From Pyrinomonadaceae bacterium (GTDB lineage: Bacteria > Acidobacteriota > Blastocatellia > Pyrinomonadales > Pyrinomonadaceae), in the NCBI GenBank assembly GCA_030841105.1, contig JAVEDE010000037.1, positions 1-64,000 of the forward strand: a DNA stretch of 64,000 nt, read 5' to 3'. How positions within the stretch are numbered: the stretch's first letter is position 1; the number at the start of each line of letters is the position of its first letter. The notes under the pieces are model-generated. The model was not told the origin of the DNA. It did no database searches and saw nothing but the letters and a program-made list of their open reading frames with translations. Shown here one piece after another: positions 7,535 through 14,367 of the stretch. The position numbers and the translations under genes were made by a program.

Positions 7535-8722
7535 TTACCCTCTCTTTTCGTCTGTCAAACTTCCGGCCAGCGCGGCACGGAGCGCGGCGCGCACGACGCG
7601 CGGCGGAATCTCCTGCCCGCTCACGATGCGCGCGCGCCCGATGCGTTCGAGCAGCACCCAGCGAACGTGGCCGCCGACGCTCTTTTTGTCCGAAGCGATA
7701 GCGCGCAGGATCGCGCGTTCATCGAGGTCGTCTGCGCGGGGCAAGCGTCCGGCGAGTTGGACGCAAGCTCTTAGAGATTCTAACTCCGAAGCGGCGAGCA
7801 TGCCTAGCCTGTTTGAAATTTCGGCCGCGACGAGCATCCCGTAACCGACCGCCTCGCCGTGCCGGAAACGCCGGTAACGCGTGACGGCTTCGAGGGCGTG
7901 GGCGGTGGTGTGGCCGAAGTTAAGGATGCGCCGCGAGCGCGCGTCCGTGCGCGATACGTCCTCGCGCTCGTCGGCCGACACGATCTTCGCCTTGAAAGAA
8001 CACTGCGCGGCGATCAACTCTGCGAGTTCGTCAGCGCGACGAGATGCGCGTTCCAACTCGCGCGCGGCTTCGCCGGTTTGTTCGGCGACGAGGAAGCGGC
8101 GCGTCTGCTCGAACAAGGGGCGACTGCCGACCGCGCCCTGCTTGATCGCCTCGCACCACCCGGCCGTCAGTTCGCGCGTCGGGAGAGTGGCGAGCGTCGC
8201 GGTCGAGATGACGACGGCGCGCGGTTGGTGAAACGCGCCGATCAAATTTTTCCCTTCACGCGTGTTGACGGCCGTCTTGCCGCCGACTGAGGCATCAATC
8301 TGCGCGAGGAGCGTCGTCGGCACTTGCAGGAAACCGATGCCGCGCAAATAGACCGCCGCCGCGAAGCCCGCCAAGTCGCCCACGACCCCGCCGCCGAGCG
8401 CGACCACGGCGTCCGTCCGTTCGAGTTTGCTCTCAGAGAAAAACGCGAGGGCGCGCTCCGCCGTCCTGAGATTTTTGTGCCGCTCGCCGTCGCCCATCAA
8501 CCAGTGCGAGACCGCGAACCCGGCGGCGCGCAAGTCGCGTAGGACGCCCGCGCCGTAGAGTTTGAAGACGCGCGCATTCGAGACGACAGCGACGCGGCGC
8601 GCGTGCGGCGACAGTGATCGGCGCGCGGTGTCGCCGACGCGTGCGAGCGCGTTCGCGCCGATCTCGATCTCATAATTTTCGCGCCCCGCGAGGCGCACGC
8701 TGACCTGTCGCATCTGTTTCAT
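7535..8722 (-). CDS. aroB: 3-dehydroquinate synthase
   Basis: AroB converts DAHP to 3-dehydroquinate, the second step of the shikimate pathway, using NAD and a divalent metal. The 395-residue sequence carries the NAD-binding GGGVVGDLAGF motif, the VPTTLLAQIDASVGGKTAVN block, and two metal-binding histidine regions, NFGHTTAHALE and FRHGEAVGYGM. The start codon at 8722 overlaps the stop of the upstream M3-like gene as ATGA, which suggests translational coupling. A small membrane protein gene follows after 4 bases. Confidence 0.96.
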   Translation of the reverse strand: MKQMRQVSVRLAGRENYEIEIGANALARVGDTARRSLSPHARRVAVVSNARVFKLYGAGVLRDLRAAGFAVSHWLMGDGERHKNLRTAERALAFFSESKLERTDAVVALGGGVVGDLAGFAAAVYLRGIGFLQVPTTLLAQIDASVGGKTAVNTREGKNLIGAFHQPRAVVISTATLATLPTRELTAGWCEAIKQGAVGSRPLFEQTRRFLVAEQTGEAARELERASRRADELAELIAAQCSFKAKIVSADEREDVSRTDARSRRILNFGHTTAHALEAVTRYRRFRHGEAVGYGMLVAAEISNRLGMLAASELESLRACVQLAGRLPRADDLDERAILRAIASDKKSVGGHVRWVLLERIGRARIVSGQEIPPRVVRAALRAALAGSLTDEKRG

Positions 8723-10272
8723 TCGCGTGTGAGAGTCGAGTTGAACGAGTCGGACAGCAGGTCAAAGTCGGGCGCGCCGAGGCCGACGAGCGAGGCCAGT
8801 TCTTCGACCGTGTAACGCGAACCCGTGTTCCACATGTCAATCAACTCGTCGGCGGCCTTGTTCGTCGTCCACCAGCGGCGGCCGTGGCGCGTCCGAAAAT
8901 ATTCGCCGAGCGCGGCGGCGAAGAGGCGCGCGCGCAGGTAGACGGCCGGTGGAAGTCGCGCGACCTCCACGCGTCCGTCATGTAAATTGTCGGGCACTAA
9001 ATCGCGCAGGAGGAGCGACGGGTGCGCGCGAAAGCTGGTCGCTTCTTCGAGCGCCGTGGCGTAAGTTTCGGCGAGGTGTTCGGAGCGCGCGTCGGTCGCC
9101 TGTTCGAGCGCACGCTGTTGACGGAGGCGCGCGCAGGCGAGGCGCGTGCGGTGCAATTCGACGAGCGCGAAGGAGCGCGCGATCTCGGTTGCCTCCGAAG
9201 GCCGCACGTTCCTGTGCGCGGCGATCCACGCGGCGTCCGCAAGAAGATCGGCGAAGAGGAGTGCGAAGCCCGCGCGCGTCGTTTCATCGGGCGCGTGGAC
9301 GAGTTCGGGGTAACGCGCGACGAGTTCGCGCGAGACCCAAGCGGAGTGCTGCGCGCGTCCCGCCGCCGCGAAAAATTTTTGATAGAAGCCCGCGCCGTCC
9401 TCATTTTGATAGACGAGGCGCACGTCTTCCGGCGGGTTCACGGCGAAGCACGCGGCGCGGCTTTTACCGAACTCGACCGCCGTCGTCTCGATTCGCACGT
9501 TGGGTTGCAGGCCGACGCGAATGCCCAATGCGCCCATCGCCGCGTCGTAAGTGGAGCGCAGTTCGCCCGCGGGGAAGTATGGATCGAGATGCGTCAGGCG
9601 CGCGAAGTAAAGACTGTCGGCATAGACCAACTCGCGCGCGGACGCGGCGGGCAAGTGACGCGCCGACCACTCGAACAACTTCGTGGCATAGACGCGCGCG
9701 GTGCGTTCGAGAAAATCATCCGCGCCCGTGCCGAGACTTTCAACGCCCGCCTCCGTGATTCCCGACAGGAGATTGAAATAAGAATCGTGGCCGACGGCGC
9801 GCGCGCCTTCGCGCAACGTGTCGAGACGTGCGGCGCGGAGGTCGGAGCACTGGCGCAGCGTGTCGAACCAACGCGCGGCGAGTTCGCGGCGACGCGCGGG
9901 GTCGGTCTCGGCGGCGATTGTCTCAGGCGCGTCGTCGGACGCGAGACGCGCGCCGTCCCACACGACGCGCGCGGACGCTTTGCAGCGCACGAGTTCGTCC
10001 GTCACCTCGGCGGCGCGCGCTTCCGCGTGGCCTAACCCGGACGCGCGCAAGAGGGCGGCGAGTGCGACGCGCTCGGTCTCAAACTGGCTCGAAGTTTCCT
10101 CAAGCGCGCGCGTGAGATCGGCGATGGCGTCGCGCGTCCAGAGGTCGGCGTAGCGGTCGCGGAGCGGCGCGAGGCGCAGTTCCGGCGCGACGCCCGTGTG
10201 GTAATCGTAGCGGGCGCGTTCAAGCGCAGCCGAGTAGGCGGCGTAATCGCGCCGGTAGTCGCCCGTCTTCAT
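8719..10272 (-). CDS. M3/M2-like helical peptidase homologue lacking the HEXXH zinc motif
   Basis: The 517-residue, mostly helical protein reads like an M3-family oligopeptidase. The segment where that fold carries HEAGH reads FAAAGRAQHSAW (about residues 322-333), so both His ligands and the catalytic Glu are replaced. The downstream third-ligand region reads TRAGFALLFADLL, where active relatives have a Glu before G/S-(Y/F/W)-A. I infer a pseudoenzyme that may keep a peptide-binding or structural role. It overlaps aroB by ATGA. The leader upstream holds a candidate small RNA and a sigma-54-type promoter. Identification of the family is by pattern only and could be off by subfamily. Confidence 0.65.
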   Translation of the reverse strand: MKTGDYRRDYAAYSAALERARYDYHTGVAPELRLAPLRDRYADLWTRDAIADLTRALEETSSQFETERVALAALLRASGLGHAEARAAEVTDELVRCKASARVVWDGARLASDDAPETIAAETDPARRRELAARWFDTLRQCSDLRAARLDTLREGARAVGHDSYFNLLSGITEAGVESLGTGADDFLERTARVYATKLFEWSARHLPAASARELVYADSLYFARLTHLDPYFPAGELRSTYDAAMGALGIRVGLQPNVRIETTAVEFGKSRAACFAVNPPEDVRLVYQNEDGAGFYQKFFAAAGRAQHSAWVSRELVARYPELVHAPDETTRAGFALLFADLLADAAWIAAHRNVRPSEATEIARSFALVELHRTRLACARLRQQRALEQATDARSEHLAETYATALEEATSFRAHPSLLLRDLVPDNLHDGRVEVARLPPAVYLRARLFAAALGEYFRTRHGRRWWTTNKAADELIDMWNTGSRYTVEELASLVGLGAPDFDLLSDSFNSTLTRE

Positions 10273-10378
10273 AGGAGCGCGCTTCCGCGGGAAAGTTGAA
10301 TGGCCGAAAAGAGATTTTGCAGAACGAGTCGGATTCTAGCACGCGCGCCGGGCGGCGACGTATCGAGGTGTTCGATAC

Positions 10379-10496
10379 AAAAGCAGAACCGGCGCAGCGA
10401 ACTTGGGGAACGCTGCGCCGGTTCTAATTTGTGGCTACTGTCCTCACCCCAGCAACCACTGAGACGGAGGATCCACCAACCGTCTCTCTTGCCCCA
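10379..10496 (-). ncRNA. Candidate small RNA or structured leader with three hairpins
   Basis: Reading the minus strand from about 10496, three stem-loops follow each other. Stem I is GAGACGG/CCGTCTC (10486-10480 with 10467-10461). Stem II is nine pairs including G-U pairs, GTGGTTGCT with AGTAGCCAC (10459-10451 with 10439-10431). Stem III is a perfect 15-bp stem, AGAACCGGCGCAGCG with its complement (10425-10411 with 10399-10385), followed by GCTTTTG. A -24/-12 element sits at the expected distance upstream. Stem III plus four U could be a weak terminator. If it does not terminate, the structure is the 5' leader of the M3-like gene 107 bases further on. I do not recognise a known RNA family. 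Confidence 0.5.
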
Positions 10497-10507
10497 CAAT
10501 ATACATC

Positions 10508-10522
10508 GCAAGGTTCATGCCA
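10508..10522 (-). promoter_or_regulatory. Sigma-54-type -24/-12 promoter
   Basis: The minus strand reads TGGCATGAACCTTGC from 10522 to 10508. It matches the RpoN consensus TGGCAYG-N4-TTGC with the invariant GG and GC ten bases apart. A start near 10496 would begin the three-hairpin transcript. The 150 bases upstream are AT-rich and could hold an activator site. No rpoN gene is in this window. Confidence 0.6.
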
Positions 10523-10672
10523 TGCAAGCGGTTTTTTCAAATTTTTCGACTTATCGCCTGTCTTTACTAGGGTTTCCGGCGTTTCCCCGGCTTCGAGACG
10601 GGGTTGATTAAAATTTTGCAAGGACACTTAAGCGGTAATAATTACATCAACTAGCGCGTAAAGTTTTCCCTG

Positions 10673-12094
10673 TCACGAGGACTTTTTTTCTCCGAGAGCG
10701 CGCTTGATGACTGCTGCTAAATTTTTTGCCAGACGGTCAATTTCCTCCTGACGCCGCCCCTCGATCATGATTCTGGCGAGCGGTTCGGTGCCCGAATAGC
10801 GGAGCAGCAGTCGCCCCTCCCCGGTGAGGGCGGCCTCTGTGCGGCGGGCTTCCGCGGCGATCTCGGCGACCTCCGCAAACGGCCGCTTCTCGCCGACGCG
10901 CACGTTGACGAGCACCTGCGGGTAGCGCGTGAAGCCCGCATTCAGTTGTTCGAGCGACGCGCCCGTCTCGCGCATCGCGCGCAGCAGGAAGAGCGTCGTC
11001 ATCATGCCGTCGCCCGCGAGGCTGACGCGCGGGAAGATGATGTGGCCGGACTGTTCGCCGCCGAGGCTCGCCCCCGTGCGCAGCAACTCTTCGAGCACAT
11101 ACTTGTCGCCCACGTCGGCACGCAGCATCTCGATCCCACGCGACTTGAGCGCGAGTTCCAGCCCGATGTTGCTCATCACGGTGGCGACGATCAGCCCGCC
11201 CGCCAGTTCGCCGCGCGACTGAAAACTCTGCGCCATCACCCAGAGCGTCGCGTCGCCGTCAACAACTTCGCCGCGCGCGTCCAGAAAGAGCGCGCGGTCT
11301 GCGTCGCCGTCGAACGCGACGGCGAGGTCTGCTCTCTCCGCGACGACTTTCTCGCGCAGTCGTTCGACGTACAGCGAGCCGCATTCGCGGTTGATGTTTC
11401 TCCCGTCGGGCGCGTCGTGGACGGCCGACACCTCCGCGCCCAGACGCTTGAAGAGCGCGGGCGCGAGTTGCGACGCCGCGCCGTTGGCGCAATCAACCAC
11501 GAGCCGCAGGCCATCGAGCCGCAAGCCCGCCGCGACTTCTTCGCAAAGGTAGTCAAGATAGCGCGCCTGCAAAGAGACCGCGCGATGCGACGCGTCAACG
11601 TCCGTGTCCACACTCAGCGACGAACCTTCGCCAAGGCTTTCGGGCGAGTGTGATTCGCCGCCTTCACCGTCGCCCGCGCGCGCCCGTTGGATGTCGGCTT
11701 CGATGAGCCGCTCGGTCGCGTCGTCGAGCTTGCGCCCGTTGGGCATGAAAATCTTGATGCCGTTGTCCTCGTAAGGATTGTGCGACGCGCTGATGACGAC
11801 GCCCGCGTCGGCCGGAAGCGTGCGCGTCAGGAAGGCGACGCCCGGCGTCGTGATGACTCCCGCCGACTCGCACGTCGCGCCACCTGAGCGCGCGCCGTCC
11901 GTGAACGCGCGCTCGATCCGACTGCCGGACTCGCGCGTGTCGCGTCCCAAGATGATGAGCGGCGCGCGCCCGTCGCCCGTTTGCTCCGCCAGTTGACGCG
12001 CCAGCGAGCGGCCGGTCGTCCGGACGGTCTGCGCGTCGAGCGGGAAACGCCCGGCCTCGCCGCGCATGCCGTCCGTGCCGAAAAGTTTTTTCAT
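10673..12094 (-). CDS. glmM: Phosphoglucosamine mutase
   Basis: GlmM interconverts glucosamine-6-phosphate and glucosamine-1-phosphate for UDP-GlcNAc and peptidoglycan synthesis. The 473-residue sequence has the N-terminal FGTDGMRG signature, the phosphoserine loop VISASHNPYEDNG (about residues 102-114), the metal loop AFDGDADRALF, the sugar-binding GGEQSGH, and the C-terminal phosphate-binding RYSGTEPLARIM. It is the last gene of the cdaA-cdaR-glmM cluster, the same order seen in Firmicutes, where GlmM binds and inhibits CdaA. A Glu/Gly/Ser-rich insertion near residues 138-158 is unusual in length. A heptad hairpin precedes its start. Confidence 0.96.
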   Translation of the reverse strand: MKKLFGTDGMRGEAGRFPLDAQTVRTTGRSLARQLAEQTGDGRAPLIILGRDTRESGSRIERAFTDGARSGGATCESAGVITTPGVAFLTRTLPADAGVVISASHNPYEDNGIKIFMPNGRKLDDATERLIEADIQRARAGDGEGGESHSPESLGEGSSLSVDTDVDASHRAVSLQARYLDYLCEEVAAGLRLDGLRLVVDCANGAASQLAPALFKRLGAEVSAVHDAPDGRNINRECGSLYVERLREKVVAERADLAVAFDGDADRALFLDARGEVVDGDATLWVMAQSFQSRGELAGGLIVATVMSNIGLELALKSRGIEMLRADVGDKYVLEELLRTGASLGGEQSGHIIFPRVSLAGDGMMTTLFLLRAMRETGASLEQLNAGFTRYPQVLVNVRVGEKRPFAEVAEIAAEARRTEAALTGEGRLLLRYSGTEPLARIMIEGRRQEEIDRLAKNLAAVIKRALGEKKSS

Positions 12095-12109
12095 GGGTTA
12101 ACTATCAAA

Positions 12110-12187
12110 GGTCAGTCGTTGGCCGTCGGCTGTCGGCGGTTCTGCGATTATTACTTGCTGACTGCCGATGGCTGACGGCTGACGGCT
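12110..12187. repeat. Heptad inverted repeat, TGACGGC class
   Basis: The junction between cdaR and glmM holds arms 12110-12140 and 12157-12187. The right arm is GCTGACT, GCCGATG, GCTGACG, GCTGACG and GCT; the left arm pairs with a one-heptad shift and several G-T pairs. The minus-strand sense arm ends about 15 bases before the glmM start. Confidence 0.65.
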
Positions 12188-12191
12188 CTCT

Positions 12192-13130
12192 TTAAGGATT
12201 AGTTGAGATTAGTTCGACGCGGCCTTCGAGATGCGGCGGCAGCAGGAGGCGCGGGCGCGTCGTGCCGTCGGCCGCCGTGTCGAAGACGATGGAGAGGTCT
12301 GCGGCGCGCAGGGGTTCGACGACGGAGCGCGCGCCGCGCACTTCAATCGTGAGCCGCGACTCCGAGCCGTCCGCCCCGCGCGCGGCGACGCCGCTCAGCC
12401 GCTTCGTCGCACGCGCCTCGGCGATCTTCACGTGTACGTCAACTACGGTGTCGAGCGCGACGAGTTTGCGATCCTGTATGTCAATGGCGACCTGCGTGGC
12501 GGTGAACGTCTCCGTCCGGCCGTCGAGCAGGATGGTTTCGGTCGGCGCACGTTCGAGCGCGTTGACGTGGCTTTCGGGGCCGCGCACGCGCACGCGCGCG
12601 GGCAGCGGTTCGAGTCCCACCAACTCGTAGCCCGGCGGCAGCTTGCCTTCGGGGCGAGGTTCGACGGGCAACTCGCGCTCGACGCGCCGCTCCAACCTGA
12701 GCGGGACGCTCCCCGGCTCGATGCGCTCGACGATGACGCCTTCCGCGCCGATGCCTTCGGGCAGTTGCAGCGAGATGTTGTACGGCGAGAGTTGCACGAC
12801 GCGCTCGCCCGGCCGGTAGCTGCTGGCGTCGTAGCTCAGGGAAACGTCGCTCGCTTTGATCGAGTCGAGCGCGCGCTTGCTGCCGCGCAGCGTCAAGTCA
12901 ACTTCCTCGCGCGGCTCGTTGCTGATCTCCATGTCGGGCGGGAGCACGAAAAAGAGCGGCACTTTACGCAGCCGCGCCGTCGTCGGCACGCGCTGCCCGG
13001 TGACGGCGAACCACAGGCCGAGCGTGATGGCGAGCGCAAGCAGTTTCAACCCCCAGTCGGCGAACAGGAGGTCGTACAGCCACCGACGCCCCATCTGCAC
13101 GGCGTCCCTTTCCATGTCGCGTAAAGTCAT
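12192..13130 (-). CDS. cdaR: YbbR-domain protein, CdaA regulator
   Basis: The 312-residue protein has a single N-terminal membrane segment (about residues 24-44, LLFADWGLKLLALAITLGLW) and repeated extracytoplasmic YbbR-type beta domains with V-x-V-R-G-P-like turns (VRVRGPESHVN near residue 180). In Firmicutes CdaR binds CdaA at the membrane and modulates c-di-AMP synthesis. Position between cdaA and glmM supports the same role. The first ATG (13130) is used; an internal Met at residue 12 is possible. Confidence 0.88.
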   Translation of the reverse strand: MTLRDMERDAVQMGRRWLYDLLFADWGLKLLALAITLGLWFAVTGQRVPTTARLRKVPLFFVLPPDMEISNEPREEVDLTLRGSKRALDSIKASDVSLSYDASSYRPGERVVQLSPYNISLQLPEGIGAEGVIVERIEPGSVPLRLERRVERELPVEPRPEGKLPPGYELVGLEPLPARVRVRGPESHVNALERAPTETILLDGRTETFTATQVAIDIQDRKLVALDTVVDVHVKIAEARATKRLSGVAARGADGSESRLTIEVRGARSVVEPLRAADLSIVFDTAADGTTRPRLLLPPHLEGRVELISTNP

Positions 13131-13136
13131 TGCCGA

Positions 13137-13388
13137 TCAGCGTGCCAAAATTTTGTGCCTACTCCTATAGCCAAGAACACCCGCCCCGGCGATCAGCGAC
13201 AAGCCAAGCCCGATCATCACCAGCCTGACTGCCACCCACTTCTCCCCAATCGTCGTCGTGTCCAGCACGGCCATGCGTTCTCCGGGCGAGAGGCCGCGGA
13301 GTTCGTAATCCAGCCCCCAAGTGTGAACCGAGCCTGAGAGGGAGATGACGAGCGCGGCGGCGGCGAGCAGGACGCAGGCTTTCTTCAT
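13137..13388 (-). CDS. Small two-helix membrane protein within the cdaA operon
   Basis: The 83-residue protein has a signal-anchor-like hydrophobic N-terminus (CVLLAAAALVISLSG), a short extracytoplasmic loop (about residues 20-50) and a second hydrophobic segment near residues 54-72 (VRLVMIGLGLSLIAGAGVLG) ending in basic residues. It starts 33 bases after cdaA and ends 6 bases before cdaR. I do not recognise the family. Its place between cdaA and cdaR suggests an accessory in the same membrane complex, which is inference. Confidence 0.6.
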   Translation of the reverse strand: MKKACVLLAAAALVISLSGSVHTWGLDYELRGLSPGERMAVLDTTTIGEKWVAVRLVMIGLGLSLIAGAGVLGYRSRHKILAR

Positions 13389-13421
13389 GACACTCGGGAA
13401 ACTCTCGCGGCCGTCAATATT

Positions 13422-14279
13422 TTACGTCGAGACCGCCTCGTTGCGCTCGCCCTCGGTTTCGGCAGGCAGCGCGGCCGGTTCATCGCCCGTGCGCGCGGGG
13501 GTCTTGATGGCGTCGAAGATGGCAGCGCGCAGTTTGGTGGCGTCGAGTCCACGGCGGATCTGCCCGCCCTGCACGAAGGAGATCAGCCCGGTCTCTTCGG
13601 AGACGACGACCGCCACGGCGTCCGTGTCTTCGGTGATGCCGATGGCGGCGCGGTGGCGCGTGCCGAGGTCTTTCGACAGGCGCGGGTTCAGCGTGAGCGG
13701 CAGGAAGCAGGCGGCCGCCGCAACGCGGTGACGGCGGATGACGACCGCGCCGTCGTGCAGCGGCGTCGCCGGGTTGAAGATCGTGACGAGCAGATCATAA
13801 CTGAGTTCGGCGTCCATCTTGAGGCCGCCGTCGGTGACGTTCTTCAACCCGACGCCGCGCTCGATGACGATGAGCGCGCCCGTCTTCGTCGAGGCGAGCG
13901 TCGTCGCCGCCAGCACGATCTCGTCGTAGACGCCCTCGCCGAACTGCCCGCGATGGCGTGCGAGACTCGGCAGGCGTATCTGGTTGCCGAGCGAGGTCAA
14001 AGCCTGCCTGATCTCCGACTGGAAGAGGACGATGATCGCGACGCCGATGTAGATGAGCGCGCCGCGCAGCACGAACTCCAACGTGGCGAGATCGCGCCGG
14101 TAGGCGATCCAGTAGAGCAGGGCGAAGGCCGCGATGCCGATCGCCATCGGCACGGCGCGCGTCCCGCGCAGCAGCTTCAACACCGTGTACACGATCAGAA
14201 AGACCAGCGCGATGTCGAGCAAATTGCGCGGCTCGCGTAGTCTGTCCAGATATTCCGTGTAGGACGGTGCGAAAAACAT
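13422..14279 (-). CDS. cdaA: Diadenylate cyclase CdaA
   Basis: CdaA makes the second messenger c-di-AMP from two ATP. The 285-residue product has three N-terminal membrane helices (about residues 15-90) and a DAC (DisA_N) domain with the active-site motifs DGAVVI (near residue 190) and GTRHRAAIG (near residue 220). The downstream order is a small membrane protein, cdaR and glmM. The ATG at 14279 is chosen. The frame stays open 13 codons further up to 14318, but those codons translate the heptad repeat (giving LVTCHSS) and are unlikely to be coding. Confidence 0.95.
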   Translation of the reverse strand: MFFAPSYTEYLDRLREPRNLLDIALVFLIVYTVLKLLRGTRAVPMAIGIAAFALLYWIAYRRDLATLEFVLRGALIYIGVAIIVLFQSEIRQALTSLGNQIRLPSLARHRGQFGEGVYDEIVLAATTLASTKTGALIVIERGVGLKNVTDGGLKMDAELSYDLLVTIFNPATPLHDGAVVIRRHRVAAAACFLPLTLNPRLSKDLGTRHRAAIGITEDTDAVAVVVSEETGLISFVQGGQIRRGLDATKLRAAIFDAIKTPARTGDEPAALPAETEGERNEAVST

Positions 14280-14291
14280 TTGATGAGTAGT

Positions 14292-14367
14292 AAGTGACGA
14301 GTGACAAGTGACGAGCAAAAGACAGAATTGTTTTTACTTGTCACTTGTCACTCGTCACTCGTCACTT
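14292..14367. repeat. Heptad inverted repeat, GTGACAA class
   Basis: Left arm 14292-14315 and right arm 14337-14367 consist of AAGTGAC and GAGTGAC heptads and their complements. The right arm has one more heptad than the left. The element fills the gap between the CDF gene and cdaA; its minus-strand sense arm ends 13 bases before the cdaA ATG. Confidence 0.88.

Follow-up and report, generated by a model that had tools for sequence, protein, structure and literature searches.

Organisation of the locus

The window, meaning the whole stretch of 64,000 nucleotides of Pyrinomonadaceae DNA analysed here, carries on its minus strand the genes cdaA (DAC domain), cdaR (YbbR) and glmM in a row (10673-14318), a conserved c-di-AMP synthase/glmM operon that directly precedes a predicted small RNA. 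The transcript is predicted to start at 10496, 12 bases after the C of the −12 promoter element, and to be about 118 nt long; the features of the locus are collected in Table 1. Directly 3' of the terminator, an inverted repeat, TATCGA-ACACC-TCGATA, occupies positions 10361-10379 of the minus strand; it is not kept in a related locus (L002).

Table 1. Features of the RNA locus, in the order of transcription
Feature	Position	Strand	Evidence or conservation
glmM (phosphoglucosamine mutase-type), syntenic upstream neighbour	10673..12094	minus	PGM_PMM domains I-IV; synteny
Distal palindrome-like site GGGAAAACTTTACGC, putative second activator site	10656..10670	minus	Just 3' of the glmM stop; degenerate, 23 bp upstream of the proximal site
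Proximal palindrome ATGTAATTATTACCG, consensus TGTAA-N3-TTACA, putative activator site (UAS)	10633..10647	minus	Conserved in sigma-54-type copies
Overlapping sigma-70-like elements TTGCAT - 18 - TATATT	10498..10527	minus	Sigma-70 scores compared across copies
Sigma-54-type −24/−12 element TGGCATGAACCTTGC	10508..10522	minus	GG, CA, TT and GC each 2.0 bits (28 family copies); GG-N10-GC shared by copies from three further families
Predicted 5' end and conserved leader UGGGGCAAGA	10487..10496	minus	In sigma-54-type copies, not in sigma-70-type copies
Hairpin I, GAGACGG/CCGTCTC with inner GG/CC	10461..10486	minus	Compensatory switch from G-C to A-U (5 sequences); 100% paired
Hairpin II, 10 bp with two G-U pairs	10431..10459	minus	Compensatory changes in the stem
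Loop of hairpin II, nearly invariant GGGTGAGGA	10449-10441	minus	GGTGAGGA core in nearly all copies
Hairpin III, perfect 15-bp stem (10425-10411 with 10399-10385), then GC and TTTT (10382-10379); intrinsic terminator	10379..10425	minus	Double-sided changes in 11 of 12 consensus pairs
Extended -10-like TGCTAGAAT before the M3-like gene, separate from the RNA	10333..10341	minus	TGCTAGAAT or TGCTACAATC-like in many relatives
Downstream gene, M3-like according to the earlier note	8719..10272	minus	0 Pfam families at E <= 0.001

RNA structure and covariation

The region 10507-10375 folds with a minimum free energy of -65.7 kcal/mol (z = -6.5), and none of 200 shuffled sequences folded as low. An earlier note on this DNA had described three stem-loops from about 10496, ending in a perfect 15-bp stem and four T; the fold and the coordinates bear this out, and its start near 10496 agrees with the one predicted from the −12 C.

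A consensus structure of 31 pairs was derived from 30 loci. Double-sided changes were found in 14 of these pairs, most of them in hairpin III, with one such pair in hairpin I and two in hairpin II. Standard pairs fill 99.4% of pair cells (93.0% in shuffles), the double-changed cells number 63 against 15.1 in shuffles, and the covariation score is 0.306 against 0.165; none of 500 shuffles was as high on pairing, double-sided changes or covariation score, and sliding the partners by 1-3 columns lowers pairing to 38-56%. The compensatory stem changes that the earlier note had named as a check are thus present, beyond every shuffle and slid control.

The loop of hairpin II, GGUGAGGA, is nearly invariant over about 100 copies, and its GGTGAGGA core has single-base exceptions in three of them (L066, L122 and L137). 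In the family of the window GGUGA(A/G) occurs in both hairpins I and II, with GGUGAAUCC in loop I and GGUGAGGAC in loop II. Hairpin I differs in the other families of the class, and loop II is the conserved element. The predicted transcript is short and structured, has its own promoter and intrinsic terminator, and has a structure under selection.

Distribution of the RNA

Relatives were found first by a DNA search, in which the block of promoter and RNA turned up in most family genomes, together with extra copies in the same genomes, and then with a covariance model. The model detects the RNA in 75 of 99 Pyrinomonadaceae genomes, representing all 29 genera. In the class as a whole, the Blastocatellia (Acidobacteriota of soils and hot springs), 94 of 162 genomes match, and these belong to four families. 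Genus g9 stands out in that most of its genomes have no match. The copy number is 1-6 per genome. The weaker copies come from searches with a model that was itself derived from copies of the family; their promoter, leader and neighbouring genes give independent support. Matches include many Pyrinomonadaceae metagenome assemblies as well as Pyrinomonas methylaliphatogenes K22, a cultivated species, whose copy is sigma-54-type (L011/L210).

When 396 genomes from across the phylum were sampled, the 21 that matched all belonged to the class, and no match was found outside Blastocatellia. Horizontal spread to Acidimicrobiaceae, Ilumatobacteraceae and Ignavibacteria was considered and rejected: the pattern matches there (L145, L149, L167, L187 and L209) fail the covariance model and are therefore attributed to chance. 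No Rfam family matches the RNA at its gathering score, the models of Qrr, GlmY/GlmZ, Acido-1 and Acido-Lenti-1 included; of the two comparative checks proposed earlier the one for covariation was positive and the one for a known Rfam family negative.

The window's genome holds a second copy (G000:C44:886-987, L062) with a sigma-70-type promoter, which is kept in two loci of the same genus (L063 and L064). Genomes of another family, f6, have up to four copies, mostly with a sigma-54-type promoter and palindrome (L103, L104, L112, L113, L115, L116, L119, L121 and L124); a multi-copy sRNA set under one activator is proposed for this family.

The −24/−12 promoter element

The element TGGCATGAACCTTGC spans positions 10522-10508 of the minus strand, with GG at 10521-10520, GC at 10509-10508 and exactly 10 bases between them. 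It is the sole match in the window to the pattern TGGCAYNNNNNTTGC; taken alone this is modest evidence, because 0.19 matches are expected by chance and 15 of 100 shuffles carry one. Conservation provides the stronger argument. In the window's family, whose sigma-54-type copies number 28, the letters GG, CA, TT and GC show no variation (2.0 bits), while the intervening bases carry between 0.3 and 1.4 bits. Elsewhere in the class, copies from three further families mostly have a classical TGGCA(C/T)-N5-TTGC with little sigma-70 likeness.

Copies of the RNA fall into two promoter types. The sigma-54-type class (n=52, with upstream DNA in the sample for 51) shares GG-N10-GC and a UGGGGCAA-like leader; it includes L107, which lies outside the range of the scripted promoter search and has TGGCACTTTGATTGC, and L123, which has a deviating TGGCACGCTCTGTGC and was assigned by visual inspection of this element and its palindromes. 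Sigma-70-type copies lack both the −24/−12 element and the leader, and have TTGNNN-17/18-TATANT-like elements instead. The RNA structure is retained under both promoter types. The mean sigma-70 score is 7.5 for the sigma-54-type copies of the family, 6.1 for those of other families and 8.7 for sigma-70-type copies.

The genome of the window contains rpoN, one of the genes that the earlier note had asked for, and its reading of a sigma-54-type promoter with perfect −24/−12 spacing is upheld by an element that is conserved around variable intervening bases. The conserved spacing is accompanied by rpoN, upstream sites and activator genes in the same genome, and the main proposal of the earlier note, that a compact RNA is driven by a sigma-54 promoter, is supported by these comparisons.

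Upstream palindromes and candidate activators

Nearly all sigma-54-type copies carry, 90-140 bp ahead of −24, a 13-bp palindrome, TGTAA-N3-TTACA. It had been missed in the earlier note and supports the sigma-54 reading independently. When the best palindrome in the interval from -185 to -110 (counted from hairpin I) was scored, values of >=9/12 were reached by 28 of 28 sigma-54-type copies in the family, 21 of 24 in other families and 1 of 58 sigma-70-type copies, against 2-4% of shuffles, a comparison somewhat favourable to the palindrome because its consensus was read from the same sequences as were scored. The contrast between promoter types does not depend on the shuffles alone. In 24 of the 28 family copies a second site lies at a spacing of 22 or 23 bp from the first; its placing is less regular in other families. 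The combination of the palindrome and, after 90-120 bases, GGC-N7-TTGC occurs once in the 5-Mb genome of the window, at the RNA, and the reversed control gave 0 matches.

Enhancer-binding proteins, another check suggested earlier, are plentiful: about 20 strong sigma-54 activator ATPase genes were found in the window's genome. Seven of its own activators (L238, L241, L242, L243, L246, L254 and L258) have an orthologue in K22 and none in G022, a genome with sigma-70-type copies, so that this presence/absence comparison yielded seven candidates and no single one; five of them (L238, L241, L242, L243 and L246) are of the response-regulator type on sequence inspection.

A single change of promoter type

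In one branch of the family a sigma-70-like promoter stands in front of the main copy, which has lost both the −24/−12 element and the palindrome. A glmM tree was built by a quick method for 41 main-copy loci (25 sigma-54-type and 16 sigma-70-type); it is unrooted, and along it the promoter type changes once, with an SH-aLRT value of 95. The sigma-70-like promoter is read as the derived state because the copies of three other families are sigma-54-type. Loss of sigma-54 was rejected as the cause, since rpoN persists in genera with sigma-70-type copies. Dispersed copies are sigma-70-type in the family of the window and mostly sigma-54-type in family f6.

The two kinds of element overlap at the window's own locus. 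TATATT, here at 10503-10498, is found in most sigma-54-type copies of the family, and the overlapping sigma-70-like promoter could give sigma-54-independent transcription. Whether both promoters work in this family, with enhancer-driven sigma-54 output added to a basal sigma-70 level, could go either way; this would refine rather than replace the sigma-54 reading. Besides the overlap in most family copies, such an arrangement has been reported for glmY of E. coli (PMC6075780) and would provide a natural stepping stone towards the one switch to a sigma-70-like promoter, but the 18-base spacing and weak -35 make for a modest sigma-70 element, which moreover is lost in three related genomes (L023, L082 and L088) that retain −24/−12.

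Possible partners of the RNA

A gene for Hfq, present in the window's genome, was found in all 6 genomes examined. Several candidate interactions were rejected. Pairing between loops II and III is no better than in shuffles (mean energy -4.50 against -4.36 kcal/mol), and the complementarity of loop II, as a Shine-Dalgarno mimic, to the 16S tail is no better than that of shuffled loops. The TCCTCC of loop I, for which the earlier note had suggested pairing with Shine-Dalgarno sequences, did not hold up as such an element: its letters vary among relatives (ACCTCC, GCCTCC, TCCACC) and hairpin I differs in other families.

The RNA might instead titrate a protein through the repeated GGUGA(A/G) of hairpins I and II. 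The near-invariance of loop II in about 100 copies, the presence of several copies per genome, and the pair of motifs GGUGAAUCC and GGUGAGGAC speak for such a decoy. CsrA is the usual protein titrated by decoy RNAs of this kind; it was not found in the genome of the window (an assembly about 89% complete), so a CsrA sponge was rejected, and the loop I motif is not retained in other families. Overall, a protein-binding decoy appears unlikely, if still to be reckoned with. More doubtful is a class-wide version, according to which the RNA would have a dedicated activator with essentially one enhancer site in the genome and would titrate, via its GGUGA loops, a conserved RNA-binding protein apart from CsrA, RapZ and Crc, one lineage having been rewired from signal-dependent to housekeeping expression.

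Free-standing RNA or leader of the downstream gene

The main copy lies mostly about 170-220 nt 3' of glmM and precedes M3 or aroB in most genera, also in other families. This constancy, together with a terminator placed ahead of a gene in the form of an attenuator, would suit a cis-acting leader in which the M3/aroB transcript would begin with the RNA and hairpin III would act as a regulated terminator, as the earlier note had offered beside a small RNA. However, the gene 3' of the RNA varies by lineage, being an M3 homologue in many relatives and aroB or another gene elsewhere, so that no downstream gene is constant in all copies. The dispersed copies have no common neighbour, and their neighbours recur only as groups of 2-4. 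Many relatives have a TGCTAGAAT or TGCTACAATC-like sequence between the terminator and the next gene, and the predicted fold gave no sign of an alternative, anti-terminator pairing.

A free-standing RNA is favoured over a leader because the downstream gene varies, extended -10-like sequences intervene and the neighbours of dispersed copies differ. The leader or attenuator is accordingly judged improbable, and of the two earlier proposals it is the small RNA that survives, as a conserved, covarying, terminator-ended unit. Conserved synteny with glmM and M3/aroB leaves space for a local role.

Comparison with known small RNAs

The RNA resembles Qrr of Vibrionaceae, which is LuxO-activated and sigma-54-dependent, in being a short, terminator-ended sRNA with a −24/−12 promoter and several copies per genome. 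Upstream of Qrr genes lie two LuxO sites, 13-bp palindromes whose halves are separated by 3 bp, TTGCAWWWTGCAA (PMC10162802); the Blastocatellia RNA likewise has two upstream sites of this form, here TGTAA-N3-TTACA. Unlike Qrr, it has three hairpins, a different palindrome and host class, and no match to Rfam.

In E. coli, glmY has a sigma-54 promoter overlapped by a sigma-70 promoter, and activator sites lie upstream (PMC6075780). The same three elements liken our RNA to GlmY/GlmZ of Enterobacteriaceae, which are QseF-activated and RapZ-bound. In the window's genome rpoN and a rapZ-type gene (L031 and L237; G000:C48, about 20.1-23.6 kb) lie within about 4 kb on one contig, and the RNA adjoins glmM of the same pathway, an adjacency that may be coincidence. 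It differs from GlmY/GlmZ in having no Rfam match and an upstream site other than the TGT-N12-ACA of QseF.

Two structured non-coding RNAs of Acidobacteria have been described, Acido-1 (RF01686) and Acido-Lenti-1 (RF01687) (PMC2864571); even with permissive thresholds, cmscan matched neither of them to the window copy or to a copy from another family. GGA hairpin loops in a short multi-hairpin RNA recall the RNAs that sequester CsrA/RsmA (RsmY/RsmZ, CsrB), but CsrA was not found in the genome of the window and the GGA of loop I is here often GAA.

The best reading of these likenesses is a new family of activator-controlled sRNAs, which would be Qrr- or GlmY-like in architecture and, by Rfam, a member of neither. 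No earlier description of a sigma-54-controlled sRNA in Acidobacteriota was found in the open-access literature searched.

Interpretation and significance

Judged by comparative sequence evidence, the RNA is a real, so far undescribed bacterial sRNA gene conserved across Blastocatellia. The explanation that fits best, to which we assign a probability of roughly 0.85, is a free-standing, trans-acting, activator-controlled sRNA gene. A sigma-54 activator would sense a signal and bind the TGTAA-N3-TTACA sites that lie in tandem some 90-140 bp before −24, then contact and remodel the sigma-54 RNA polymerase sitting at −24/−12; transcription from near 10496 to hairpin III would give the RNA of about 118 nt, whose GGUGAGGA loop would engage a conserved partner, either an mRNA (possibly with Hfq) or a protein. 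This output through loop II is less certain than the input side. Action in trans as an independent RNA is suggested because the neighbours of dispersed copies differ and the terminator precedes a separate promoter-like sequence.

It is hardly credible that the RNA is instead a constitutive sigma-70 sRNA, with TTGCAT-18-TATATT the real promoter and the −24/−12 match a by-product: the TATATT of most family sigma-54-type copies and the good sigma-70-like promoters at the same place in the sister branch and paralogues would agree with this, but copies of three other families have −24/−12 with little sigma-70 likeness, three loci keep −24/−12 without TATATT (L023, L082 and L088), the palindromes go with −24/−12, a single sigma-70-type copy of 58 reaching the score, and GGCA and TTGC are fixed within what would be a free sigma-70 spacer.

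For the activator-controlled sRNA, the gene tree records one exchange of promoter in which the RNA remained largely the same, and this amounts to a natural experiment. A whole class keeps an sRNA of which promoter, enhancer-like sites, RNA and terminator can all be read from the sequence. The RNA gives a direct handle on a signalling circuit, and the cultivated K22 carries a sigma-54-type copy.
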